Assembly (NCBI GenBank): GCA_016933955.1
Contig: JAFGTT010000019.1
Coordinates: 62,001-126,000 of the forward strand
From: Candidatus Zixiibacteriota bacterium
GTDB lineage: Bacteria; Zixibacteria; MSB-5A5; GN15; PGXB01
DNA length: 64,000 nt
Direction: 5' to 3'
Positions 26,575 through 41,666 of this stretch are shown here, piece by piece. The notes beneath the pieces are model-generated. The model saw only the letters and a list, made by a program, of their open reading frames with translations, did not search any database and was not told the DNA's origin. Numbering within the stretch: position 1 is the first letter of the stretch; every line of letters starts with the position of its first letter. The translations under genes were made by a program, and so were the position numbers.

Positions 26575-26722
26575 ATGCCTGCGTTTTGTTCCATGAATCT
26601 TTATAGCTTGAAATACGTCATAACATTATATTGGCGGATAGGATTTATGGCCCGGCCAGTGAGAATGAAATAGATGTAATTGCCGGTCGGGGGAATGCAC
26701 AATGATTCATGGAGACGTCATT

Positions 26723-28576
26723 ATGAAGAACATTATCATCGGATTATGTCTTGGCCTGATTATTCCGTTCAATGTGGCTATCGGGGATAATACGACCCCT
26801 CTTTCGGATCCTTATCAAATAATGGGGCGATATGTTCAGGCTATCGGTGGACTGGAACGGCTGAAAGGCGAACAAACCAGTTACTTCGAAGCCACCTTTA
26901 CCATGCCCGGGCTGGCAGGAACTCTGAAAAACTGGACCGGGCGTCCGGATCGGGAACGGACGGAGCTGGATCTGCAGGTTCTCAGAAAGACAACCGGGGA
27001 TAATGGCCGTTTCAGCTGGGAGTTAGATACCAATGGTAAAGTAACCATAAACAAGGATAAAGCGACTCTGAAAAGACGGGAGATTTCGCGTCTGATGAAT
27101 GAATTCGATTTTCTCGATCCCGGGTCCAATATTTTTGATTTGTTTTTTATGGGAAGCGAAGCCATTGACGGAAAGACCTGTTATGTTATCCGAATCACGA
27201 ACAGCGTTAATAATGACACTCTGATCGAGTATTATCCTGTCGATGATTTTATTAAAAGCAAATCGGTCAGTATCACGCCCGACGAAAAAGTCATTACGAA
27301 ATTCTCGGATTATCGTTTTGTCGATGGGCTTTTGATTCCGTTTTGCCAGGAGATGAATATTCAACCGGTCGGGCAGGAAATAAAGGTCCAGATTACCGAA
27401 TATCGGTCCGATATTGAAATTGACCCGGCTCTGTTCGATCCGCCCGGTGAGGATGTTCGGGATTATCGCTTTTTATCCGGGGGAGCATCGGCTGATATCC
27501 CGTTTGAATATATTGAAAACCATATTTATTTAATGGTCAATATTAACGGTCGTGAAAGAATATGGATTCTTGATACCGGGGCGCAGATGTCGGTTATCTC
27601 AAGCCGCTACGCTCGAGAAATCGGGGTGGATTTGGAGGGAAGTATGAAGGGCTCGGGAGCCGGGAATACCGTCGATTTTTCTTTTGCAACTCTGCCGTCA
27701 TATCGCCTGGGAGATATTGAATTCGAACCGCAGCAAGTGGCCGCTCTTGATCTGGGAGAAATTTTCGATCATTTTGATATTGATGTGGTCGGAATTCTGG
27801 GATATGATTTTCTGTCGCGATTTATTACGCGGGTCGACTATGCCGGAGAAATGCTGACCTTTTATGATCCCGATCATTTCGAATATGACGGCCCCGGGGT
27901 GATTCTGGATGCGCCCCTTCATGGCAATGATTTCCATATTCCCATAACCGTGGATGGCCGCTACGATGGGGATTGGAATGTCGATCTGGGGGCCTCGACC
28001 ATAAGTTTTCATTACCCTTATGCCCGCGAACACAATTTGCAGGAAGGCCGGGGAGTGGATCGTGTCGGCCTTGGAGCCGGCGGGGAGTTTCGGGAGCGGA
28101 CGGTTCAATTCGAGTATCTGGAATTGGCCGGATTCAGGATTTTAAAACCACTGATCGATATTCCCATGAATGAGATGGAAGGGGCCTTTCGATCCGGTGA
28201 GATGACCGGCAATCTGGGCAATTCCATAATGCGGAATTTCATTCTTTATCTTGATTATAAGAATCAGAAAATGATAGTGGAAAGAGGGAAAGATTTCGGC
28301 CGGGAATTTCCTGAGGATAAGAGCGGCCTGCAAATCTGGCGGGAAAATGGTCGTCCTGTGGTTCATTTTATTTCACCGGGGACACCCGGTCAAAAGGCGG
28401 AATTCCAGGTCGGAGATATCATCTTGTCTGTGAATAAGCTGAAAGTGGAATATCTGAAAAATCTCCAGGCACTTCATGATTTATTCAAAGCCGCCGAGGG
28501 TACCGAATATAATGTGGGAATAATGCGTGACGGCAAGGAGCGGGAACTAAAAATCCGGCTGAAAAATCTTTATTAG
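26723..28576 (+). CDS. Secreted retropepsin-like aspartic protease with PDZ domain
   Basis: About 617 residues. Signal peptide, then an N-terminal region of about 230 residues with an LolA/outer-membrane-lipoprotein-like strand pattern (YVQAIGGLERLKG onward). Two retropepsin-like lobes follow. The first has the active-site triad D284-T-G-A in ILDTGAQMSVIS. The second has D421-L-G-A in NVDLGASTISFH, where Thr is replaced by Leu. GILGYDF and GNLGNSIM are the usual flap-side Gly motifs. A C-terminal PDZ domain (about 530-615, SPGTPGQKAEFQVGDIILSV) ends the protein. It should act in the periplasm. The ATG at 26723 has GGAGACG upstream. Confidence 0.82.
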   Translation: MKNIIIGLCLGLIIPFNVAIGDNTTPLSDPYQIMGRYVQAIGGLERLKGEQTSYFEATFTMPGLAGTLKNWTGRPDRERTELDLQVLRKTTGDNGRFSWELDTNGKVTINKDKATLKRREISRLMNEFDFLDPGSNIFDLFFMGSEAIDGKTCYVIRITNSVNNDTLIEYYPVDDFIKSKSVSITPDEKVITKFSDYRFVDGLLIPFCQEMNIQPVGQEIKVQITEYRSDIEIDPALFDPPGEDVRDYRFLSGGASADIPFEYIENHIYLMVNINGRERIWILDTGAQMSVISSRYAREIGVDLEGSMKGSGAGNTVDFSFATLPSYRLGDIEFEPQQVAALDLGEIFDHFDIDVVGILGYDFLSRFITRVDYAGEMLTFYDPDHFEYDGPGVILDAPLHGNDFHIPITVDGRYDGDWNVDLGASTISFHYPYAREHNLQEGRGVDRVGLGAGGEFRERTVQFEYLELAGFRILKPLIDIPMNEMEGAFRSGEMTGNLGNSIMRNFILYLDYKNQKMIVERGKDFGREFPEDKSGLQIWRENGRPVVHFISPGTPGQKAEFQVGDIILSVNKLKVEYLKNLQALHDLFKAAEGTEYNVGIMRDGKERELKIRLKNLY

Positions 28577-29733: not shown

Positions 29734-29787
29734 ATGAACGTTGTGCTTGATAATGATAATATGATTCAATATAATGTGGCTTCATGA
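29734..29787 (+). CDS. Possible 17-residue leader peptide
   Basis: An ATG at 29734 opens 17 codons ending in TGA at 29785-29787, between the predicted transcription start and the leader terminator. The product has four Asn among 17 residues (positions 2, 7, 9, 14). There is no clear ribosome site, so translation is doubtful. It is listed because its position is that of an attenuation leader. Confidence 0.2.
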   Translation: MNVVLDNDNMIQYNVAS

Positions 29788-29860: not shown

Positions 29861-31099
29861 TTGAATCTAAAAATCGTTTTTGTCGGTTTTTTTATTTTCT
29901 TGTTCAGTCATGGCCTTACTCTGGCCCAGGAATCATCTGATTCCGCATTTACCGCGAATGATACAATATCCGTTGTTCCCCCCGATGTTACGCCTGTGAT
30001 CGTTAAAAATGTGGAAGTCCGTGACAATCCCAATGATGAGGGGGGAGCCATCAGAATCCATTGGAGTCTGTCTATTGACGATTATAAGGGCGGCAAAGTG
30101 GTTAGATATGTAATCCTGAGAGGGACTGACCCACGGGGCAAATTCGAGAATCTTGGCGATGTATCATCCGGGACCGGGCAGTTTATTGACAATGCCACCG
30201 AAGACAAAGTCGAATACTATTATAAAGTCGCGGCGGTTAATGAAAAGAAGGAAGATGGCCGGCTGCTGTGGAGCGTGTCGGCCGATTCGGATATAGTCGG
30301 ACCGGTGAAATCATCAGCCCAGTGGTTCAATTTCGAGCGAATAAATGTCTTTGTCGGAACGCTGTTTGTCTGTTTGGCCATATTCATATATATCCAGATG
30401 GCAAAATCCGGACGCAACCTTTATGTCCGGAAAATCGCCGGTCTGGAATCGGTTGATGAAGCAGTTGGCCGGGCTACGGAAATGGGCCGGAAGATTCTTT
30501 ATGTCCCCGGAATCAATGATATGGATAATGTCCAGACGATTGCGGGGATTACCATTCTGGGTCGAGTGGCCCAGATTGCGGCGGAATATGAAACATGGAT
30601 CGAGGTTCCAACCTGTCGTTCGCTGGTAATGGTAACCGCCAAGGAAATTGTCAAGGAAGCATACAGTAAAGCCGGTCGACCGGATGCCTATAACGAAGAT
30701 CAGGTTCATTATCTGACTGATGACCAGTTTGGATATGCCGCCGCTATCGACGGAATGATTGTCCGTGAAAGACCGGCGGCGATTTTTTATATGGGGGCGT
30801 TTTTCGCCGAGTCGCTGATTATGGCAGAAACCGGAAATTCAATCGGGGCGATCCAGATTGCCGGTACCGGTCAGCCCTCGCAGTTGCCGTTTTTTGTGGC
30901 CTCGTGCGATTATACCCTGATCGGTGAGGAACTTTTCGCGGCTTCGGCCTATCTTTCGCGTGAACCGCGCCTTCTGGGTTCGCTTAAAGGTCAGGATTTG
31001 GCCAAAGCGGCCATTCTGGTATCGATCATTGTTGGTGTTGTCCTGGAGACGTTCGGATTATTCCAGTTTTCCGGCTTTTTCAGGGTTATTGGTGAATAG
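29861..31099 (+). CDS. Cassette 1 protein A: FN3 domain, membrane helix, DUF6754-like domain
   Basis: 412 residues. Signal peptide (… LTLA), an FN3 domain at about 45-140 (GGAIRIHWSLS, VRYVILRGTD, YYYKVAAVN), one membrane helix at about 160-178, then a cytoplasmic domain of about 210 residues that I place in DUF6754: VRKIAGLESVDEAVGRATEMG, GINDMDNVQTIAGITIL, AGRPDAYNEDQ, FYMGAFFAESLIMAETG, CDYTLIGEELFAASAYL. A last hydrophobic helix ends it. TTG start after an AGAGAG-like site; the two paralogues at 33464 and 37168 confirm the reading. No catalytic role is known for the domain. First gene of the operon. Confidence 0.85.
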   Translation: MNLKIVFVGFFIFLFSHGLTLAQESSDSAFTANDTISVVPPDVTPVIVKNVEVRDNPNDEGGAIRIHWSLSIDDYKGGKVVRYVILRGTDPRGKFENLGDVSSGTGQFIDNATEDKVEYYYKVAAVNEKKEDGRLLWSVSADSDIVGPVKSSAQWFNFERINVFVGTLFVCLAIFIYIQMAKSGRNLYVRKIAGLESVDEAVGRATEMGRKILYVPGINDMDNVQTIAGITILGRVAQIAAEYETWIEVPTCRSLVMVTAKEIVKEAYSKAGRPDAYNEDQVHYLTDDQFGYAAAIDGMIVRERPAAIFYMGAFFAESLIMAETGNSIGAIQIAGTGQPSQLPFFVASCDYTLIGEELFAASAYLSREPRLLGSLKGQDLAKAAILVSIIVGVVLETFGLFQFSGFFRVIGE

Positions 31100-31116
31100 G
31101 GAAGAAGGATTCCGAT

Positions 31117-31788
31117 ATGCGTCGTGAGATTCCGTTAATTATTACCGCGGTGGTCGGGTTTGTCTATGTTATCCAGTATTTTATTCCTCATTATCCCTTT
31201 AATAATTTGAATGGATGGTTTTCCGACTGGTTTTCGATTATCGGAGCCTGTGCCATCTGGCTGGGGGCTCTCAACCTGATGAGAATTTCATTTGATAAGG
31301 TATACAAAAAAAGAAGGGACTGGGGTTATTCGATTATCATTATTCTTTCATTTGCACTTATTGTCGTAATTGGCTTCGGCGGCGGTCGGGATTTCCGGGA
31401 CCTTGGAACCAATTTTGACTGGCTTTACCGATTCATTTACACACCCTTGTCGGCCACGATGTTTGCACTTCTGGCCTTTTTTGTGGCTTCGGCCTCGTAC
31501 CGAGCTTTCCGGGCCAGGAATTTGGAGGCATCGCTTCTGCTGGTAGCGGCTTTCTTTGTCATGATCGGGCGGGTACCGGTGGGTGATGCTCTGGTAACCA
31601 AGGTGGCCGGACTGATAAGTCTGCCGATTCCGGATGCCGTTCTGCCATCCAAAATCGCCACCTGGATTATGAATTATATCAATGCCGCCGGTCAGCGGGC
31701 GATTATGATCGGGATTGCCCTGGGAATAGTCTCGACCTCGCTTCGAGTTATTCTCGGTATCGAACGGGCTCATCTGGGGGGTGAATGA
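31117..31788 (+). CDS. Cassette 1 protein B: conserved multi-helix membrane protein
   Basis: 223 residues with about six membrane helices. Paralogous to the genes at 34730 and 38716: all three start M[RK]RxxPL, share SA[SA]YRAFRA[RK] in the middle, RAIxIGxxLG near the end, and finish LG[IV]ER[AT][HY]LG. No known family could be assigned and no signal peptide is seen. GAAGGA precedes the ATG. Its TGA overlaps the ATG of gene C by four bases, so B and C should be made together. Confidence 0.85.
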   Translation: MRREIPLIITAVVGFVYVIQYFIPHYPFNNLNGWFSDWFSIIGACAIWLGALNLMRISFDKVYKKRRDWGYSIIIILSFALIVVIGFGGGRDFRDLGTNFDWLYRFIYTPLSATMFALLAFFVASASYRAFRARNLEASLLLVAAFFVMIGRVPVGDALVTKVAGLISLPIPDAVLPSKIATWIMNYINAAGQRAIMIGIALGIVSTSLRVILGIERAHLGGE

Positions 31789-32780
31789 TGAAACAGGATC
31801 TGATAGTATACCTTGGCGTACTGATACTGGCCCTGGTATTTTATTTTGTCATCACCGAACCAGTGGTTTTTTCGCCGACCGTATCATTGATTCTGATCGG
31901 CATTATCGGACTGGTTCTCCTTTATATTTTGATAAAGACTATCCGCGGCCAGGTATTTGGCCGGAGAACGGTGTTTTTATTTGTAGGAATTGCCGTGGTC
32001 CTGCCGTTTTTCATGTCCATTCGGCAGGATATCAAACTGTCGCCGGAGGTTGAGGAGTTGTACAATGCTGTCATGGCATTGCAACCCGGTTCAAAAGTCC
32101 TGGTTTCGCTGGATTATGACCCGCCCTCAGCTCCGGAACTGCAACCGATGGCGGAATCGTTTTTTCTACTTTGTTTTCGAAGAGATTTAAAGGTCATTGT
32201 CATGGGTCTTTGGCCTCAGGGCCCGCAGCAGGCTGAACTGGCTATTCAGAAAATACTTGATCGTCCCGAGATGGCTTCAAGAAACATCCGCTATGGTATC
32301 GATTATGTCAATCTTGGGTTTCAGACCGGCAATGAGTTTGTCATTCAGCGTATGGGCGGATCCTTCCGCAGTATGTTTTCGACCGATTACTATGGGACGC
32401 CTTATGATTCCTTACCGCTGGTAAGAAATATTACAAATTTCAACAATATTGATTTTTCATTTAACCTTTCGGCCGGATATCCCGGAACAATTGAATGGGT
32501 TCAGGTCGCAGTGGATCGTTACGGGGTTAAACTGGGAGCGGGTAATACTGCTGTTCAGGCGCCTCAGGTTTATCCTTATCTGCGAGCCGGCCAGTTGACC
32601 GGTCTACTGGGCGGGCTCAACGGGGCCGCCGAGTTCGAGAAGGTAACCGGTGTTCTCGGCAAAGGCACCAAATTCATGGTATCGCAGTCGTTTTCACATG
32701 TTATCGTGATTGCCTTTATTATCATTGGCAATGTGGCCTATTTCATGGGTCGGAAACAGGAAACGAAGAAGAAGCAATAG
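31785..32780 (+). CDS. Cassette 1 protein C: membrane-tethered extracytoplasmic domain
   Basis: 331 residues. Three N-terminal helices (to about residue 85), an extracytoplasmic domain of about 210 residues, and one C-terminal helix followed by the basic RKQETKKK tail, which places the C-terminus inside. Landmarks are LDYDPPSAPELQPM, YGIDYVNLGF, TDYYGTPYDSLP and GLLGGLNGAAEFE; equivalents are present in the paralogues at 35400 and 39372. Family not recognised. Its ATG overlaps the stop of gene B. Confidence 0.82.
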   Translation: MMKQDLIVYLGVLILALVFYFVITEPVVFSPTVSLILIGIIGLVLLYILIKTIRGQVFGRRTVFLFVGIAVVLPFFMSIRQDIKLSPEVEELYNAVMALQPGSKVLVSLDYDPPSAPELQPMAESFFLLCFRRDLKVIVMGLWPQGPQQAELAIQKILDRPEMASRNIRYGIDYVNLGFQTGNEFVIQRMGGSFRSMFSTDYYGTPYDSLPLVRNITNFNNIDFSFNLSAGYPGTIEWVQVAVDRYGVKLGAGNTAVQAPQVYPYLRAGQLTGLLGGLNGAAEFEKVTGVLGKGTKFMVSQSFSHVIVIAFIIIGNVAYFMGRKQETKKKQ

Positions 32781-32816
32781 GCGGTCAAAATAACCGGACC
32801 GCTTGAGGATATAGAT

Positions 32817-33461
32817 ATGGAAATTTTTGGAACCTGGCTGGCGGCGTTTTTCACTCTGGGGATTATATCCTTTTTATACAAGGACAATCCCTGGTACAAG
32901 GTGAGTGAAGCGATTTTTGTGGGGATATCGGCTGGTTACTGGTTTGTCATATCTTTCTGGGATAACCTGTATGGCAAGTTATATATCGGGATAAGCGAGC
33001 ATGGCGACTATATGCTTCTGGTCGGCGCCGTCCTGGGTTTTATGATGTTGTTGCGATTAATTCCCAAGATCGGGTGGATTTCCCGCTGGCCTTTGTCGTT
33101 TGTGGTCGGATCCATTTCGGGTTTCTACCTGATGAACTATTTCTCATCGAATGTCATGGCTCAGGTTCAAAATTCGATTCTTCCCTTCTTCAGCTCCAGT
33201 TACGGTCAACCGATGTTCTCGGCATCATTCGAGCAAATTGTCGGCAATATAGTTGTGGTGGTGGGGACTTTCACCGGCCTGGTTTATTTCTTTTTCTCGA
33301 AGGAGCATAAAGGTGCTTTTGGAGGGATGGCCAAGGTCGGTATCTGGGTCATTATGATTACCTTCGGGGCCTCGTTCGGTTATACGGTTATGAGCCGTAT
33401 GTCGCTTCTGATCGGGCGTATGGATTTCATCTTCGGGGATTGGCTGGGAATGATTCAATAG
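32817..33461 (+). CDS. Cassette 1 protein D: conserved membrane protein
   Basis: 214 residues, about six helices. Shared with the paralogues at 36313 and 40255: SFLYKDNPxYK near the start, FISRWP-like ISRWP after the third helix, FFFSKEHKG in a loop, and FGASFGYTVM in the last helix, followed by an amphipathic end. It is the shortest of the three D proteins; it lacks the extra N-terminal helix of D2 and the extra C-terminal helix of D3. GAGGAT precedes the ATG. Function unknown. Confidence 0.82.
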   Translation: MEIFGTWLAAFFTLGIISFLYKDNPWYKVSEAIFVGISAGYWFVISFWDNLYGKLYIGISEHGDYMLLVGAVLGFMMLLRLIPKIGWISRWPLSFVVGSISGFYLMNYFSSNVMAQVQNSILPFFSSSYGQPMFSASFEQIVGNIVVVVGTFTGLVYFFFSKEHKGAFGGMAKVGIWVIMITFGASFGYTVMSRMSLLIGRMDFIFGDWLGMIQ

Positions 33462-33463
33462 TG

Positions 33464-34714
33464 ATGGATTATTACGTTAAATTTCATAGGCCTCACAGCA
33501 ATATAATTCCATTATTCACAATTATCTTTTTTCTGGCGACCGGGATGATTAATGCCCAGGGAACGGATTCATCGGTTGTCGATACGGCCATGCAGGTTCA
33601 GCTTCCGGTTCCGGTTTCGGAATTCATGGCTCTGGATCACGAGTACGATCGCGGCGAGGCCGTGGATTTGAGCTGGAAATTGTCGGTAAATGATGATGGC
33701 TCGGGACGGGTGACCGGCTATGATATTTACCGGTCGCATGGCGGAGACGGGAAATTTATTTTAATTGCCTCGGTTCCACCCGGTTTCGGAACTTTTGTTG
33801 ATAAGGATGTAAAATCGGGCGATGTCTATACCTATAAAATCGCCACCACGTTGGAAGCCGGAGCATCGGCATTCATTGAGGCCGATCCGGTGATTCCGAA
33901 TACCGAGATAATCAACTGGAATCTTCTTAACCTGTTTATCATCGGTTTCATAGTCTGCGGTTCGGTGATATTTTTTATCGCCCATGCCAAGCGCGGGAAA
34001 AAATTATTTATTCGCAAAATTGCCGGTCTTGAGGCGGTCGATGAAGCTATTGGCCGGGCTACCGAAATGGGCCGTCCAATTCTGTTTGTCCCCGGCATTA
34101 ATGATATGGATGATGTCCAGACAATTGCCGGGATCACCATTCTCGCGCGGGTGGCCAAGGTGGTGGCCGAGTACGATATAAAGATTAATATGCCGGTGTC
34201 GCGGTCGATTGTCATGACTACCGCGCGTGAAACCATACGAGATGCTTATGCGGCCGTCGGTCGTCCGGATGCATATAATGACGACATGGTTCGCTATATT
34301 ACCGATGAGCAGTTCGGTTATGTGGCGGCGGTCGATGGAATTATGGTTCGTGAAAAGCCGGCCACCTGCTTTTATCTTGGCGCTTTCTTTGCCGAGTCGC
34401 TGATTCTGGCTGAGACGGGTAATTCGATTGGGGCGATTCAGATCGGCGGGACGGCCATGCCGGCTCAATTGCCATTTTTCGTGGCCGCCTGCGATTATAC
34501 CCTGATTGGCGAGGAGCTTTTTGCCGCTTCGGCCTACCTGTCCAATGATCCCAAACAACTGGGTTCCCTTAAAGGTCAGGATGTGGGCAAGTCCGTTGCC
34601 ATGGCCGCTATCATTCTGGGTGTCCTGAGCGAGACTATTTCGCAAGCCTGGGGCGGTTCATTGTTTTTTAAACTGGCCGAGTATATGCAACGATTCTTTA
34701 CCATTTCGAATTGA
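33464..34714 (+). CDS. Cassette 2 protein A: FN3 domain, membrane helix, DUF6754-like domain
   Basis: 416 residues. Signal peptide ending INA, an FN3 domain (VDLSWKLSVNDDGSG, VTGYDIYRSHGG, YTYKIATT), one membrane helix at about 148-167, then the DUF6754-like region with GRATEMG, GINDMDDVQTIAG, VGRPDAYNDD, LGAFFAESLILAETG and CDYTLIGEELFAASAYL. This region is visibly closer to protein A of cassette 1 than to that of cassette 3. It starts at ATG 33464, three bases after the D1 stop; the ribosome site is weak, so coupling to D1 is likely. Confidence 0.85.
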   Translation: MDYYVKFHRPHSNIIPLFTIIFFLATGMINAQGTDSSVVDTAMQVQLPVPVSEFMALDHEYDRGEAVDLSWKLSVNDDGSGRVTGYDIYRSHGGDGKFILIASVPPGFGTFVDKDVKSGDVYTYKIATTLEAGASAFIEADPVIPNTEIINWNLLNLFIIGFIVCGSVIFFIAHAKRGKKLFIRKIAGLEAVDEAIGRATEMGRPILFVPGINDMDDVQTIAGITILARVAKVVAEYDIKINMPVSRSIVMTTARETIRDAYAAVGRPDAYNDDMVRYITDEQFGYVAAVDGIMVREKPATCFYLGAFFAESLILAETGNSIGAIQIGGTAMPAQLPFFVAACDYTLIGEELFAASAYLSNDPKQLGSLKGQDVGKSVAMAAIILGVLSETISQAWGGSLFFKLAEYMQRFFTISN

Positions 34715-34729
34715 TGAGGTAATGAAGGT

Positions 34730-35407
34730 TTGAAGAGACAAATCCCGCTTTTAATTACGCTGATTGTCGGTGTTGTCCTTATTGTCTCGGTCTTTTTCCC
34801 ACCGATTGAGACGCTGGGCGAGGATTTTTCTCTTTATTTCGATATTATTGCCGTGTTCGCCTTTTTCCTGGGCGGAGGCAACCTTATTCGGGTTCATGGA
34901 GACAAAATATTCAAACGCCGCCCCGATTGGGGATTTTCCATCGTAACGATTGCCGGTTTCGGGCTGATGCTGATAGCCGGGCTGTTCAAGCTTTTCAACC
35001 CGGGTGGAATTACGGCCGATGTGGCCGCCCCGGGTTCGATGTTCCAGATCATGTATGACTGGATTTTCAATCCGCTCGGGGCAACCATGTATGCTTTGCT
35101 GGCGTTTTATGTCGCCTCGGCATCGTATCGGGCCTTCCGGGCCAAGAATCGTGATGCCACGATTTTGCTGGTGGCGTCATTCGTAATCCTGCTGGGGCGG
35201 ACGCCTCTGGGAGTTTATGCCACCAGCTGGATTCCCGATTCCCTGTCGCTTCTGCGAATTCCGGAGATGGCCATCTGGATTATGACTTCGCCCAACCTGG
35301 CCGGACAGCGGGCCATCATGATCGGTATCGCTCTGGGAGTGGTTTCGATGTCGCTGAGATTGATACTGGGAGTGGAACGTACACATTTGGGGTCCGATAA
35401 TGAGTAA
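34730..35407 (+). CDS. Cassette 2 protein B: conserved multi-helix membrane protein
   Basis: 225 residues, about six helices. TTG start: an ATG just upstream is out of frame, and the paralogues begin with the same KRQxPL sequence, so the start is well supported. It contains SASYRAFRAKN, RAIMIGIALG and LGVERTHLG, as in B1 and B3. A Gly/Pro-rich extracytoplasmic loop (LFNPGGITADVAAPG) is longer than in the other copies. It overlaps the start of gene C2 by eight bases. Confidence 0.85.
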   Translation: MKRQIPLLITLIVGVVLIVSVFFPPIETLGEDFSLYFDIIAVFAFFLGGGNLIRVHGDKIFKRRPDWGFSIVTIAGFGLMLIAGLFKLFNPGGITADVAAPGSMFQIMYDWIFNPLGATMYALLAFYVASASYRAFRAKNRDATILLVASFVILLGRTPLGVYATSWIPDSLSLLRIPEMAIWIMTSPNLAGQRAIMIGIALGVVSMSLRLILGVERTHLGSDNE

Positions 35408-36311
35408 CCTGGGTTTGATTATATCCCTGATTGTTATCGGAGCCGGTTTGCTCTGGCTGTTGATTCTATCTTTGAAAGGCCGGGAGGTGGAACGGCGGGT
35501 TATTTTTCTTTTTGTCGGTCTGGCAGTTTCAATCCCGTTGCTGTTCAATATTACTTTTTCGGAAAAAGCCACTCCGATTGTCATGAATGTTTTTAACAAG
35601 ATTGACAGTCTGCCGCCCGGATCAAAAGTACTATTGTCGTACGATTACGGGCCGTCGATGGCCCCTGAAGTGGATCCGATGTCCAATGCCTTTATTCGGC
35701 ACTGCCTGACCAAGGGCCATAAGCTGTACATCATGGCGCTCTGGGCCACCGGGCAATCGCTGGCCGCGACCGCCATCGATTCGATTATTAAAACCGAATT
35801 TCCAGAGAAGCGTAACGGCGTAGATTACATCAATATAGGATATAAGGCCGGGGGAACGGGCGTTCTTAATGTCATTATCACGGATATAAGGAAAATGTAT
35901 TTAACCGATGTTTCGGGCGTGAATCTCGACTCGGTACCAATTTTCCATGGAATAAAATCTCTCAGGGATATGGATTTGCTGATTTCCATCGGTGGCGGTT
36001 ATCCTGGCGTCAAGGAATGGGTTCTGTTTGCCGGCGCCCCGGGCGATATTCCCACTGCAGGTGGTTGTGCAGCGGTCTCGGCGCCTTTGTTGTACCCATA
36101 TTATCCCCGGCAGATGCTCGGTCTGCTGGGCGGTATCAAGGGAGCAGCGGAGTATGAGTCGGAGTTGATGAGACGTTATCCCCGTTTCAAAGCGTCGCCG
36201 ACTCCGGGAATTAAGATGATGGGCCCGCAGACCCTGGCGCATCTGATAATTATCGCCTTTATCGTGATCGGTAATATTTCGTTCTTCATCTCGAGGAGGA
36301 AACGCGGCTGA
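35400..36311 (+). CDS. Cassette 2 protein C: membrane-tethered extracytoplasmic domain
   Basis: 303 residues. Two N-terminal helices, an extracytoplasmic domain (LSYDYGPSMAPEVDPM, RNGVDYINIGYKAG, GGYPGVKEW, LGLLGGIKGAAEYE) and a C-terminal helix ending in RRKRG inside. Where C1 and C3 have TDYYGTP this copy has TDVSGVN, so it diverges at a loop the other two share. The ATG lies within the end of B2; translation is probably coupled. Confidence 0.82.
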   Translation: MSNLGLIISLIVIGAGLLWLLILSLKGREVERRVIFLFVGLAVSIPLLFNITFSEKATPIVMNVFNKIDSLPPGSKVLLSYDYGPSMAPEVDPMSNAFIRHCLTKGHKLYIMALWATGQSLAATAIDSIIKTEFPEKRNGVDYINIGYKAGGTGVLNVIITDIRKMYLTDVSGVNLDSVPIFHGIKSLRDMDLLISIGGGYPGVKEWVLFAGAPGDIPTAGGCAAVSAPLLYPYYPRQMLGLLGGIKGAAEYESELMRRYPRFKASPTPGIKMMGPQTLAHLIIIAFIVIGNISFFISRRKRG

Positions 36312-36312
36312 T

Positions 36313-37137
36313 ATGAACCGTGCAAAATCAATATCCCTTATTATACTCGCGGCGGTTATCGTGCTTTTCGGGTTGAGCTGGGCTATTAAAGGAATGGCGA
36401 TTCACGAGGCCGAAACCGGGCTCTGGTTTTCAATGCGTGACAGTTTTCTGATTACTTTTGCGGCCTTTCTGACCCTGGCCATATTTTCCTTCTTATACAA
36501 AGACAATCCCTATTATAAATTCGCCGAGAACCTGTTTGTGGGTGTATCGGCAGCTTACTGGATGTGTGTCGGTTTCTGGTCAACGATTGTCGGCAATCTT
36601 TTTCCCAATATCTCGCCCCATCTGTCCAGCATATTTGGGGTTCCGTATAAAGGCTTTCACCCGGCTTATTTTATTCCGCTTATTCTGGGGATAATGTTGC
36701 TGATGCGGCTGTCAGCCAAACTGGTCTGGGTGTCCCGCTGGCCGCTGGCCTGGATTGTCGGGACCACAGCCGGGTTAAACCTGATAAGGTATCTGAGGAC
36801 TGATTTTATCAGCCAGGTAAGCAATACCTTTTTGCCGCTTCTGGTGGATTGGAAGGGTGTCGGGCCATTCTTCTCGGACTTCTCTTTGGCTTCCACCGGT
36901 CAGTTTACGATGATACTGAGTAACTGGGTAATCTTCATCGGCGTTTTCTGTGGCTTGATTTATTTCTTTTTCTCGAAGGAGCATAAGGGTTTCTTCGGCG
37001 GGGCCTCGAAAGCGGGCATCTGGATTTTGATGATTACCTTCGGGGCATCATTCGGATACACAGTCATGGGGCGGGTCTCATTACTGGTGGGACGTCTTAC
37101 CTTTATCTTCAAGGATTGGTTGGGACTGATAAGTTAG
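36313..37137 (+). CDS. Cassette 2 protein D: conserved membrane protein with extra N-terminal helix
   Basis: 274 residues. An additional N-terminal helix (SISLIILAAVIVLFGLSW) and 40-residue lead-in precede the conserved body, which has SFLYKDNPYYK, VSRWP, FFFSKEHKG and FGASFGYTVMGR as in D1 and D3. Ribosome site GAGGA lies in the end of C2, and the ATG follows the C2 stop by one base. Function unknown. Confidence 0.82.
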   Translation: MNRAKSISLIILAAVIVLFGLSWAIKGMAIHEAETGLWFSMRDSFLITFAAFLTLAIFSFLYKDNPYYKFAENLFVGVSAAYWMCVGFWSTIVGNLFPNISPHLSSIFGVPYKGFHPAYFIPLILGIMLLMRLSAKLVWVSRWPLAWIVGTTAGLNLIRYLRTDFISQVSNTFLPLLVDWKGVGPFFSDFSLASTGQFTMILSNWVIFIGVFCGLIYFFFSKEHKGFFGGASKAGIWILMITFGASFGYTVMGRVSLLVGRLTFIFKDWLGLIS

Positions 37138-37167
37138 TTTTTAATTATAAAACAGCGTGAGGCTTGT

Positions 37168-38700
37168 ATGAAGCTAAAAACGTTAATAGTTCTGTGCTGT
37201 ATTATCATGGCAAGTTCGGTCCTGGCACAGGATGAGAATGAAAAAAAACCTTTGCCGGCGGTCGTATCCAATTTAACGGCTGATCTTGAAATGGAGAATG
37301 GTGCCAGGATAGCGGTGCTTCAATGGAATTTACCGGCGGAAAGCGATTCTGTTGAGACAATTGAATACGCCGTTTTGCGGGGTCTGTCGAGTGTGGGGCC
37401 TTTCGAGGAACGCGGTCGCGTATCAACCGAAGAAACATCTTTTAAGGATGTAATTGAACGAGATTCATCGGTAGCCGATTCGTTGATCCCGATCTCTCCC
37501 CGGCCGGCGACAGATTTAATTGTAGTGGATAAGGACAATGATCATGGTCATGGGTTGATTGTCAGCTGGCATAAATCGCCGGACGATGGGGAAGGGGCGA
37601 ATAATGTCATAGGTTATGCCTTATATCGTGCTGATAGTACTCCCGTCATGTTCAAATTGCGCCAAACAGTATTCAAAACCACGGAAATGGAAGATATCGG
37701 CGGCATGTATCCCGATGAGAGAGATTATATGCCAGATAACGTTGATTACTATTATAAAATTCGGGCCATAACCACCCAGTATTTTCCGGGTGAGCGGGAT
37801 TATTATTATGTTATTCGTTCCGTTTCAACCGATTCTTCGGTGTTCAAAGATTGTGGCGCGGCCCAGTTGAATATGGTCCTGTATTCCGACAGTGAAGTCT
37901 TTGGACCGGTTCAGTCTTTTGGTCAGTGGTTTAATTGGAAGAGACTGGCAGTTCTGGTGATGGTGGCCGGCTTTTTGTCTCTTACGGTATATTTTATCAA
38001 CAAAGCCAAAGGCGGGGCCAAGCTTTTTGTCCGCCGCCTGGCCGGTATCGAGGCTGTCGATGAGGCGATCGGTCGAGCCACCGAGATGGGCAAACCGATT
38101 CTGTATGTTCTCGGGCTGGGAACCGCGGCGGACATTGCCACTATCGCGTCGTACACCATTCTGGGCCGGGTAGCCAAAAAGGTGGCGGAATATCGCACCG
38201 GCTTGATCGTACCTTGCTATGACCCGATCGTTATGACAGTGGCACAGGAGACAGTAAGGACGGCGTATATGGATGCCGGGCGCCCGGATGCCTTTAATGA
38301 GGATATGGTTTATTTCGTGACCAATCAGCAGTTCGCATATGTCGCCGGTGTCAATGGTGTCATGCTTCGTGAACGACCGGCGACGAATTTGTATATGGGT
38401 AAGTTCTATGCCGAGTCATTGATTTTGGCCGAAACCGGTGTTGTCGCTGGCTCAATCCAGATTTCCGGGACGGATGAAGTTTCGCAAATTCCGTTTTTTG
38501 TGGTGGCCTGCGACTATACCCTGATTGGCGAGGAACTTTATGCGGCTTCGGCCTATCTCGGTCGGGAGCCCCTGCTTCTGGGTTCTCTAAAGGCCCAGGA
38601 CTATGCCAAGGCGGGCGTGATATTACTTGCAATAATCGGGTTAATATCATTGATGTTTGGTTATCATGGCGTCGTGGATTTTTTCCACGTCAGCGGTTGA
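37168..38700 (+). CDS. Cassette 3 protein A: two FN3-like domains, membrane helix, DUF6754-like domain
   Basis: 510 residues, about 100 longer than the other A proteins. After a signal peptide (SSVLA) there are two FN3-like domains: one at about 30-95 (RIAVLQWNLPAESD, IEYAVLRGLSS) and one at about 115-240 (GLIVSWHKSPDDGEG, VIGYALYRADS, YYYKIRAI) with a Tyr-rich insert. Then one membrane helix (about 260-278) and the DUF6754-like region: GIEAVDEAIGRATEMG, GLGTAADIATIASYTIL, AGRPDAFNED, MGKFYAESLILAETG, CDYTLIGEELYAASAYL. This region differs most from copies 1 and 2 at the GIND/GLGT loop. Confidence 0.85.
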   Translation: MKLKTLIVLCCIIMASSVLAQDENEKKPLPAVVSNLTADLEMENGARIAVLQWNLPAESDSVETIEYAVLRGLSSVGPFEERGRVSTEETSFKDVIERDSSVADSLIPISPRPATDLIVVDKDNDHGHGLIVSWHKSPDDGEGANNVIGYALYRADSTPVMFKLRQTVFKTTEMEDIGGMYPDERDYMPDNVDYYYKIRAITTQYFPGERDYYYVIRSVSTDSSVFKDCGAAQLNMVLYSDSEVFGPVQSFGQWFNWKRLAVLVMVAGFLSLTVYFINKAKGGAKLFVRRLAGIEAVDEAIGRATEMGKPILYVLGLGTAADIATIASYTILGRVAKKVAEYRTGLIVPCYDPIVMTVAQETVRTAYMDAGRPDAFNEDMVYFVTNQQFAYVAGVNGVMLRERPATNLYMGKFYAESLILAETGVVAGSIQISGTDEVSQIPFFVVACDYTLIGEELYAASAYLGREPLLLGSLKAQDYAKAGVILLAIIGLISLMFGYHGVVDFFHVSG

Positions 38701-38715
38701 AAAGGGTGAATTAAG

Positions 38716-39357
38716 ATGAAAAGACAGTTTCCATTAATGCTGGTTTTTATTTTCGGATTCGCCATGATCATACAGTATTTTATTCCGCATCAGGCATCCG
38801 AATGGGTAAACGCTTTCTTTATGGACTGGATGATGATTATCGGTGTCTTTGCCCTGGCGTTGGGCATCTGGTCGCTGATAAGAGTCTCCTGGGATAAAGT
38901 GAAGCACAAAAGGCCCAATTGGCAATATTCGATTGTAACGCTGGGTGGGCTTTTTTTGATGACATTTTTTGGTTTTGATTATTTTCGGCATTTTTCGACG
39001 CCGGTGGGATCGGATAATTACATGTTTGTGCATTTTTACCAGTATATTGTCATTCCGATTCAGGCTACCATGTTTTCGTTGCTGGCCTTCTTTATAGCTT
39101 CGGCGGCCTATCGGGCTTTCCGGGCGCGCTCTCTTCTGGCAACCCTGTTGTTGATTGCGGCGCTGGTTATCATGCTCCGTTTTAATCCTTTTCTGGGACC
39201 GATCCAGCCGGTTATGGAAAAATTCTCGGTCTGGCTTCTCAATGTCCCGAACCTGGCCGCCAAACGGGCGATTGTCATTGGGGTCGGTCTGGGAATGGTG
39301 GCCACGGCCCTGAAAGTTATTCTTGGTATTGAACGCGCCTATCTGGGCCGGGATTGA
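38716..39357 (+). CDS. Cassette 3 protein B: conserved multi-helix membrane protein
   Basis: 213 residues, about six helices. It contains SAAYRAFRARS, KRAIVIGVGLG and LGIERAYLG, matching B1 and B2, and the same IIQYFIPH end of the first helix as B1. A His/Phe-rich loop (FDYFRHFST) is particular to this copy. AATTAAG precedes the ATG, so initiation may rely on coupling to A3. Confidence 0.85.
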   Translation: MKRQFPLMLVFIFGFAMIIQYFIPHQASEWVNAFFMDWMMIIGVFALALGIWSLIRVSWDKVKHKRPNWQYSIVTLGGLFLMTFFGFDYFRHFSTPVGSDNYMFVHFYQYIVIPIQATMFSLLAFFIASAAYRAFRARSLLATLLLIAALVIMLRFNPFLGPIQPVMEKFSVWLLNVPNLAAKRAIVIGVGLGMVATALKVILGIERAYLGRD

Positions 39358-39371
39358 GGAGGGTTGGCAGG

Positions 39372-40241
39372 ATGAATATATTTGATCGTTTGATTTCGTT
39401 GGATCGGCGTTGGGTATTCCTCGCTTTGGCGGTTGTGTGTGTCATAACTTATTTATGGGATTTTAAAGTCCCTGTCAACCTCAGCCATGAAGTCCAATCA
39501 ATTTTTGATAAGGTTAACGCCCTGGAAGAGGGTGATATTATTTATATGTCGGTTGATTATGATCCCAATGCGCTGGCGGAACTTCACCCGACAACTTATG
39601 CTCTGGCAGAATTGTGTTTCCGAAAAAAGATCAGGGTAATTTTCGGAACGCTTTCCAATCTCGGTCAGGGTATGGTTGATCAGGTGATCCGTGATATCTC
39701 GGATTCAGTTAAAAACGACGCGACTTATAATGGTGTTTTCTATCAGGGTCGGGAAATCGTCAACGGAGTCGATTATGTCTTTCTGGGGTATAAGCCTTAT
39801 CCGGCGATGGTGATCCAGGCTATGGGACTTGATTTCCGGGTTCCGTTCCCAACCGATTATTACGGGACTCCACTTGACAACATCCCGATAATGCGGGGTA
39901 CGAAAAACTTCGACCAGTGCAAACTGGTGGTGGATATGGCCGCCGGCAATGTTGCCGAAATGTGGATCACGTACGGACACGGCAACTACGGTGTTCCTCT
40001 GGCTCTTGCGGTGACCGGGGTTATGGGCGCCGATATGTATCCCTACCTCGGTTCCGGTCAAGTCTTTGGACTTGCGGCAGGGCTTCTGGGGGCGGCTCAG
40101 ATTGAGATGCTATGCGATAATCCCGGACGAGCCATGGATGGGATGAGAATCCAACTATTCGCCCATATTCTCATTATCCTGTTTATTGTCATGGGTAATA
40201 TCGGCTTCCTGGCAACCCGTAACAAGAATAAGATGAGATAG
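39372..40241 (+). CDS. Cassette 3 protein C: membrane-tethered extracytoplasmic domain
   Basis: 289 residues. Only one N-terminal helix (about 12-30, after the basic LDRR), an extracytoplasmic domain and a C-terminal helix ending NKNKMR. Landmarks are VDYDPNALAELHPT, NGVDYVFLGYKP, TDYYGTPLDNIP and GLAAGLLGAAQIE. The simple topology of this copy supports the view that the middle domain is outside and that the extra helices of C1 and C2 are additions. The ATG at 39372 follows AGGAGGG; the TTG at 39354 is less likely. Confidence 0.82.
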   Translation: MNIFDRLISLDRRWVFLALAVVCVITYLWDFKVPVNLSHEVQSIFDKVNALEEGDIIYMSVDYDPNALAELHPTTYALAELCFRKKIRVIFGTLSNLGQGMVDQVIRDISDSVKNDATYNGVFYQGREIVNGVDYVFLGYKPYPAMVIQAMGLDFRVPFPTDYYGTPLDNIPIMRGTKNFDQCKLVVDMAAGNVAEMWITYGHGNYGVPLALAVTGVMGADMYPYLGSGQVFGLAAGLLGAAQIEMLCDNPGRAMDGMRIQLFAHILIILFIVMGNIGFLATRNKNKMR

Positions 40242-40254
40242 GAGGTGATGGTAG

Positions 40255-41049
40255 ATGGAATGGAGTACATTTTTGTGGACGACGTTGGGAGCCTTCCTGA
40301 CACTATGCACTTTCTCATTTCTTTATAAGGATAACCCGTTTTATAAATTCGCCGAACACCTGGTGGTTGGCGTTTCGGCCGGTTATTTTGCGCTGGTGCT
40401 ATGGCACCAGAGTTTGATTCCCAATCTGTTTACCCGTCTCAATGATGGCGACTGGTATTTTCTGTGGGTGAATTCATCGCAGTGGTGGTATCTCATCCCG
40501 GCCGCCCTGGGGGTGATGATGTGGACCCGGTTTTCAAAGAAAAGGTCCTGGATTAGCCGCTGGCCGATTGCCCTGTACATGGGTATCGCGGCCGGTATGG
40601 CTATTCCCCGGGAGATGCAGGCCAGGGTGATCGAACAATTGCATTCGGCTATGCTGGGTGTTATCGACCGGAGTAACTTCTTCGGCCACTCCGTTTTTGA
40701 CACCGCCTCCGGCATTGCCAGCATTATTATCTTTCTGGGAACCCTGGCGGCTCTCTTTTATTTCTTCTTTTCAAAGGAGCATGTCGGTGTTTTCAAGGGA
40801 ATATCCAGTTTCGGAATCTGGATCTTAATGATCGGTTTCGGAGCATCGTTCGGTTACACCGTCATGGGCCGTATTTCATTGTTCGTGCAGAGAATCCAGG
40901 TTTTGAATGACTGGACCGTAAATGCTTGGGAAAGCGGAGAGGTCAGTTATGTGTTATTCTGGTTCCTTGTCTTCGGTATCTTCCTGATCTGGGCGATGTT
41001 CGAAATAGTGAAATACTTCATGAACAAGGGATCGACTCCAGAGCAATAG
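40255..41049 (+). CDS. Cassette 3 protein D: conserved membrane protein with extra C-terminal helix
   Basis: 264 residues. The conserved body has SFLYKDNPFYK, ISRWP, FFFSKEHVG and FGASFGYTVMGR, and a further helix of about 25 residues follows (YVLFWFLVFGIFLIWAMF), ending in a polar tail. GGAGGTGATGG is a strong ribosome site. It is the last gene of the array; the intrinsic terminator at 41074 lies 25 bases after the stop. Confidence 0.82.
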   Translation: MEWSTFLWTTLGAFLTLCTFSFLYKDNPFYKFAEHLVVGVSAGYFALVLWHQSLIPNLFTRLNDGDWYFLWVNSSQWWYLIPAALGVMMWTRFSKKRSWISRWPIALYMGIAAGMAIPREMQARVIEQLHSAMLGVIDRSNFFGHSVFDTASGIASIIIFLGTLAALFYFFFSKEHVGVFKGISSFGIWILMIGFGASFGYTVMGRISLFVQRIQVLNDWTVNAWESGEVSYVLFWFLVFGIFLIWAMFEIVKYFMNKGSTPEQ

Positions 41050-41342: not shown

Positions 41343-41666
41343 ATGGCGAGAACGTCTGGTTCCGCTGAAGTAACCAGTAAAACCAGGAATAAGAAAAAGG
41401 GCAAGCTTTCCACCCCCGAGGCCCGTCGAGAGTACCAAAGACGGTACTATCAGATGCACAAAGAAAAGGCCAAAGAGTATCAACGGCAGTACAATCTAAC
41501 GCATAAGAAAAAGGCACGAGGGGGTCGAGGGAAAGCCAATTTTGATTGTCCGCGCGAGGTGGTTCGCGCCACCTTTAACACGTCCGACATCATGCATGCG
41601 CCGGTCGAAAAGACGCTGAAGATTCTTGAGAAAATAATCAGCGGCGAAAGGCTTTTTACCATGTAA
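41343..41666 (+). CDS. Small basic protein of unknown family
   Basis: 107 residues, strongly basic in the first 65 (many Lys, Arg, Gln, Tyr), with a near-repeat ARREYQRRYYQMHKEKA and KEYQRQYNLTHKKKA suggesting two related helices. The last 40 residues are more mixed (NTSDIMHAPVEKTLKILEKI). The composition suggests a nucleic-acid-binding protein, perhaps nucleoid-associated; no family is recognised. Expression signals are strong: promoter at 41236, GAGGAGGGG ribosome site and a 13-bp terminator, so the gene is probably abundant and monocistronic. Confidence 0.75.
   Translation: MARTSGSAEVTSKTRNKKKGKLSTPEARREYQRRYYQMHKEKAKEYQRQYNLTHKKKARGGRGKANFDCPREVVRATFNTSDIMHAPVEKTLKILEKIISGERLFTM

Follow-up and report, generated by a model that had tools for sequence, protein, structure and literature searches.

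A recurrent four-gene DUF6754 membrane cassette with a MutL-type partner ATPase looks like an undescribed cell-envelope machine

The A-B-C-D system described here looks like an undescribed cell-envelope machine that is spread across many poorly studied phyla. Three tandem copies of it lie in a 64,000-nucleotide stretch of DNA from a Candidatus Zixiibacteriota bacterium; this whole stretch is called the window below. Judging from gene neighbourhoods and co-occurrence, the cassettes belong to a larger system, new here, that includes a MutL-type (ASKHA-like) ATPase and an adaptor protein, P. The reading that we favour, with slightly less than even confidence, is that separate four-subunit inner-membrane complexes share one MutL-P module, with ATP-dependent envelope transport or assembly as the likeliest function.

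Results

Three cassettes in one apparent transcription unit

A preliminary description made from the DNA sequence had claimed twelve open reading frames on the + strand, arranged as three A-B-C-D cassettes, and these were confirmed at the positions claimed. The locus reads as follows.

29747-29775, + strand, promoter-like site TTGATA-17-TATAAT (11/12), upstream of A1, about 85 bases before it; consensus scan only
29861-31099, + strand, A1, 412 aa, type c1
31117-31788, + strand, B1, 223 aa, polytopic membrane protein, no Pfam family
31785-32780, + strand, C1, 331 aa
32817-33461, + strand, D1, 214 aa, polytopic membrane protein, no Pfam family
33440-34714, + strand, A2, 424 aa, FN3 and DUF6754, type c2
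34730-35407, + strand, B2, 225 aa
35400-36311, + strand, C2, 303 aa
36313-37137, + strand, D2, 274 aa
37168-38700, + strand, A3, 510 aa, DUF6754, type c3
38716-39357, + strand, B3, 213 aa
39354-40241, + strand, C3, 295 aa
40255-41049, + strand, D3, 264 aa
41071-41098, + strand, intrinsic-terminator-like hairpin AAAAGCCCGC-TGATG-GCGGGCTTTTTTT with a T run, after D3; consensus scan, sequence read

The intergenic gaps in the twelve-gene run were at most 37 bases or negative. The stop/start overlaps reported for B1-C1 and B2-C2 were real, B3 and C3 overlapped by 4 bases, and D1 and A2 would overlap by 22 bases if the TTG start of A2, the least certain start codon of the twelve, is correct. Since a promoter-like site precedes A1 and a hairpin with a T run follows D3, a single transcript for the twelve genes is likely, and the three cassettes apparently form one transcription unit. 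Rfam and tRNA scans of the window gave no matches.

An all-against-all BLASTP comparison of the twelve proteins recovered the four proposed paralogous families of three members each. Identities were 43-51% within A, 42-48% within B, 27-37% within C and 40-49% within D (E 1e-28 to 1e-135), with nothing convincing across different families. The motifs named for the families were read from the sequence in copies 1, 2 and 3, and the proposed duplication of the whole cassette in a fixed order was supported. Downstream of the locus, a 107-residue basic protein is encoded between D3 and pyruvate phosphate dikinase (41343-41666), and relatives of it were found near cassettes at five other loci. Upstream, at 26702-28576, a gene encodes an apparently exported protein in which a PDZ domain accompanies two retroviral-type aspartyl protease stretches.

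The cassette is kept together across phyla

A search of the window's own genome found five genes with DUF6754, the domain of A described below, and two of these lie beyond the window in single cassettes, whose A proteins have no FN3-sized exported part.

L008, 6784-9955, + strand, single A-B-C-D cassette, complete
L009, 8480-5561, - strand, single A-B-C-D cassette, complete

The distribution was surveyed in 386 genomes from about 200 families, which are not independent draws. DUF6754 was present in 132 of 132 Zixiibacteriota genomes, typically in 4-6 copies, and in 66 of the 254 genomes outside the phylum, mostly in 1-3 copies. According to their record labels, the named loci, which are the best 80 of at least 579 relatives and no census, came from WOR-3, Stahlbacteria, Latescibacterota, Poribacteria, Edwardsbacteria, Armatimonadota, Eisenbacteria, Cloacimonadota, Planctomycetota, Fermentibacteria, TA06, Bdellovibrionales and others. 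The named Zixiibacteriota loci L154 and L159 carried the same cassette types as the window, and A1 of L159 was 67% identical to the window's A1.

The A-B-C-D order, proposed earlier as something to be sought in other genomes, was found there: among the 156 A genes that were not truncated by a sequence end, 146 were followed by B-C-D on the same strand. The exceptions included a doubled A (L091, L088) and an A alone beside P (L070). The preliminary description had made the idea of a co-built complex depend on B, C and D not normally occurring without A. Among 156 B, 153 C and 147 D genes there was a single orphan cassette (L108), in which A was not recovered. For B and D the co-occurrence with A was judged from the loci, and for C it was also counted outside the phylum, where 64 of 66 genomes with A and 2 of 188 without A contained C. 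Given the single cassettes, the few copies in most other phyla and the conserved gene order, the functional unit is, on this comparative evidence, one cassette. No relative was found in the viral contigs searched, and thus no link to phages is drawn.

A MutL-P module accompanies the cassettes

When the neighbouring genes were clustered, P was found in 37 loci and a MutL-family protein in 31, repeatedly just upstream of cassettes. At many loci they immediately preceded A in the same orientation, with a median distance of 151 bases for P. Further upstream there was often also S, a small protein seen in 19 loci, and a short membrane protein, seen in 9. Outside the phylum, 61 of the 66 genomes that have A also have P, against 0 of the 188 that lack A, and a check of 60 genomes found MutL in 27 of 30 with A and in 1 of 30 without. 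P was single-copy in 107 of the 123 Zixiibacteriota genomes that had it, and A usually has 4-6 copies there.

The MutL partner at L096 matched PF13941 with an E value of 6.7e-131 and 437.6 bits (cut-off 27), and the MutL protein of the window's own genome (G000, at L196) was 79% identical to it. Elsewhere, MutL-type ATPases are generally regarded as chaperones or reactivases, and the partner could thus help the complexes to mature instead of serving as a motor. P shows an RnfC_N-like barrel-sandwich signal and a KOW-like end, with a mean column identity of 58%. RnfC_N matched 15 of 25 P members (best E 1.6e-6), the P of the window's genome scoring below gathering, and no invariant or near-invariant cysteine was found in P.

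In the window's genome, MutL and P are encoded on another contig, unlinked to the cassettes. At this locus (L196 8227-17317, contig C15), MutL, a 258-residue exported protein and P immediately precede a tolQ-tolR-tolA/tonB-tolB-pal-like run that was identified by eye, without HMM, and this position hints at an envelope role. On contig C26 of the same genome (L195 7563-10358), a MutL-type ATPase and a P-like part are fused in one 931-residue protein, and such a gene fusion supports a direct partnership. Next to the fusion gene lie a methyltransferase-like gene and one for a large membrane protein whose C-terminal part is repeat-like.

Protein A joins a variable exported module to a nearly invariant cytoplasmic domain

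A1 consists of a signal peptide, an FN3 domain (residues ~42-155), a transmembrane helix (158-182), a cytoplasmic DUF6754 and a second transmembrane helix (369-397). The assignment of DUF6754 made in the preliminary description held for A1, A2 and A3, which matched PF20539 at E 1e-115 to 1e-127 and with 422, 418 and 386 bits (gathering cut-off 27). The match in A1 spanned residues 152-405, and the two other copies in the genome also scored far above the gathering score. The exported FN3 domain was likewise borne out, both by a titin FN3 profile (E 3e-13) and by the model (Z 12-13), and in A3 the exported part is longer and includes another FN3-like stretch. An AlphaFold2 model of A1 (pLDDT 90.2) showed FN3, a transmembrane helix, a six-unit alpha/beta domain and a transmembrane helix. 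Across 80 A sequences there were 4.1 K/R after the first helix, and this charge distribution places DUF6754 in the cytoplasm.

Longer A proteins, of 930-1012 residues, are encoded at L088 5197-13482, L162 1602-9963, L074 and L075; some 650-700 residues of these are exported, with few recognisable domains, and L088 and L162 have an additional A after D. At L091 5542-7318, and in other genomes of the window's family, a tandem A pair of the c4 type described below stands before one B-C-D.

Variability in A is highest in the exported module, and the cytoplasmic domain is nearly invariant. Together with the response regulators that lie close to 14 loci, this pattern could suggest a membrane sensor or regulator, in which an external ligand would bind to the exported part of A and DUF6754 would signal to MutL-P. 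However, Pfam showed no known signalling output domain in A-D, four conserved membrane proteins exceed the usual needs of a sensor, and some A proteins (A5) have almost no exported part. We consider a sensor unlikely, and a shared MutL-P module acting on separate complexes is preferred.

Alignments of DUF6754 contained invariant R, E, D, Q and G residues. When the strand limits of the A1 model were applied, G217, G312/E317, T336 and E356/E357 were found at or just past strand ends. The invariant charged residues, many of them at modelled strand ends, suggest that DUF6754 has a ligand or catalytic pocket. In a structure search with the A1 model, FN3 chains filled the list and DUF6754 was only partly covered, and a sequence search found no solved DUF6754 relative. 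The DUF6754 model compared with Sir2 gave Z 12.0 (138 residues aligned, rmsd 3.2), which is a fold-level likeness. The sirtuin GAGxS NAD motif was absent from the alignments, in which the loop after strand 1 reads VPG..D, and they contained no invariant or near-invariant His.

C carries a second alpha/beta domain, predicted to face outwards

A Pfam search with B, C and D gave no family above the cut-off, and PDB profile searches with the three proteins gave no matches. Their weak Pfam matches were treated as chance, among them TMD0_ABC in B1 at E 0.013, far under the cut-off. C1 has three transmembrane helices, an alpha/beta domain (residues 87-288) and a C-terminal transmembrane helix with conserved H305 and N316, and its AlphaFold2 model (pLDDT 93.3) has a six-unit alpha/beta domain between membrane helices. 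In 79 C sequences, 3.7 K/R followed the last helix. By the charge rule this distribution places the C domain outside, in agreement with the extracytoplasmic domain claimed earlier. A Foldseek search with the C1 model returned nothing at E <= 0.001, and the structural likenesses of the C domain were to MT0777 (Z 10.0), ACDS epsilon (Z 8.0) and transhydrogenase dIII (Z 7.7).

The helices and strands come in equal order in A and C, but homology is not claimed because a profile comparison of A with C showed no significant similarity; nor did one of D with B. At L157 13661-16743, a very divergent extra set follows the normal cassettes (A E 9e-8, C E 2e-6, D E 3e-10) and points to a wider superfamily. 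In two genomes of one family (G223 and G361), C has a weak relative (E 1e-25 and 1e-23) and A was not detected.

The resemblances of DUF6754 to Sir2 and of the C domain to these three proteins would fit a membrane enzyme or redox complex in which both domains bind a nucleotide or cofactor, MutL is a reactivase and P is an RnfC/NqrA-like carrier. The barrel-sandwich signal in P points in the same direction, as does the MutL family, which is thought to include reactivases. However, DUF6754 has neither the sirtuin-type motif nor an invariant His, the middling Z values may mean a common fold only, and no recurrent cofactor gene was recognised among the neighbours, some of which were annotated. An enzyme seems improbable to us, and the model of parallel complexes with a common MutL-P pair is kept.

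Five cassette types have kept separate identities

A midpoint-rooted tree of 114 concatenated cassettes separated five types in the phylum, with support of 0.998 for c1, 0.967 for c2, 1.0 for c3, 1.0 for c4 and a weak 0.66 for c5. The window is c1-c2-c3, and the other two loci of its genome are c4 and c5. The single-gene trees broadly agreed, the A tree being poorly supported. As judged from these trees, the five types are ancient within Zixiibacteriota. Some cassettes of other phyla nested within the c1, c2, c3 and c5 clades, and with midpoint rooting this means that the types may predate Zixiibacteriota.

The positional orthology of cassettes 1, 2 and 3, read from the sequence trees, shows long-kept separate identities, so three parallel complexes fit at least as well as one, and a mixed complex within this phylum is conceivable. 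Furthermore, c2 was missing from seven near-complete genomes that keep cassettes 1 and 3 (G125, G023, G109, G047, G128, G116 and G115) and c3 from one (G024), which makes an obligatory complex of all three sets unlikely. The preliminary description's single large complex of twelve different subunits, built from three non-identical sets, would suit sets that are contiguous, probably co-transcribed and kept in the same order across the phylum, but it is hard to reconcile with these absences and with the single cassettes known from this genome and from many phyla, and we regard it as very unlikely.

Discussion

The model builds on what was observed of gene content and order, of co-occurrence and copy numbers, of orthology and of topology as read from the sequences; that the subunits bind one another and that MutL-P acts on the cassettes is what we infer. 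Each A-B-C-D cassette would encode one four-subunit inner-membrane complex with B and D as its polytopic core. A would supply a variable exported recognition module (none, FN3, or up to ~700 residues), linked by a membrane helix to the conserved cytoplasmic DUF6754 with its apparently DHS-like alpha/beta fold, and C would contribute an outward-facing alpha/beta domain. The shared cytoplasmic MutL-type ASKHA ATPase and P would dock on DUF6754 and drive, gate or mature the complexes. Cassette copies would then give parallel complexes with different exported modules and a common ATPase pair, and the three tandem copies in the window would give three co-expressed complexes. Most likely, the complexes would use ATP to transport or assemble a component of the envelope.

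A similar design is known from the Mce systems, in which paralogous membrane operons in one genome use a shared ATPase, Mkl/MceG, that is encoded apart or just upstream (PMC1810536, PMC9947336). Mkl/MceG was tied to the mce operons by genomic pattern and matching profiles (PMC1810536). Many membrane cassettes, one partner ATPase and matching phylogenetic profiles are found here as well. However, the cassettes pair with P and a MutL protein of the ASKHA-like kind, not with an ABC ATPase, and no MCE, YrbE (permease) or ABC ATPase domain in A-D had a Pfam match above the cut-off. The parallel is therefore one of analogous design, not of membership. MutL/GlmL (PF13941) occurs in glutamate mutase and aminomutase operons, and our partner ATPase matches this family, but in this system it accompanies P and a membrane cassette, and no mutase genes were recognised among the recurrent cassette neighbours. 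P resembles RnfC/NqrA in its weak but recurrent matches to RnfC_N and NQRA_N, and differs in having no invariant cysteine, a KOW-like end and an ATPase partner.

PF20539 catalogues the domain only, and the four-gene unit and the MutL-P partners are not described there. In the open-licence literature searched, no paper mentions DUF6754, and nothing relevant was found on a MutL-linked operon or a Zixibacteria cluster. Since known families were also lacking, we regard the system as novel; B, C, D and P have no clear known family. DUF6754 thereby gains a list of partners, namely A, B, C and D, MutL, P and often S and the short membrane protein. It is possible, and we put this forward tentatively, that an undescribed energised envelope machine exists in many mostly uncultured phyla, in which one MutL-P pair drives parallel complexes with different exported modules. 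If the model is true, one ATPase deletion should affect every cassette.
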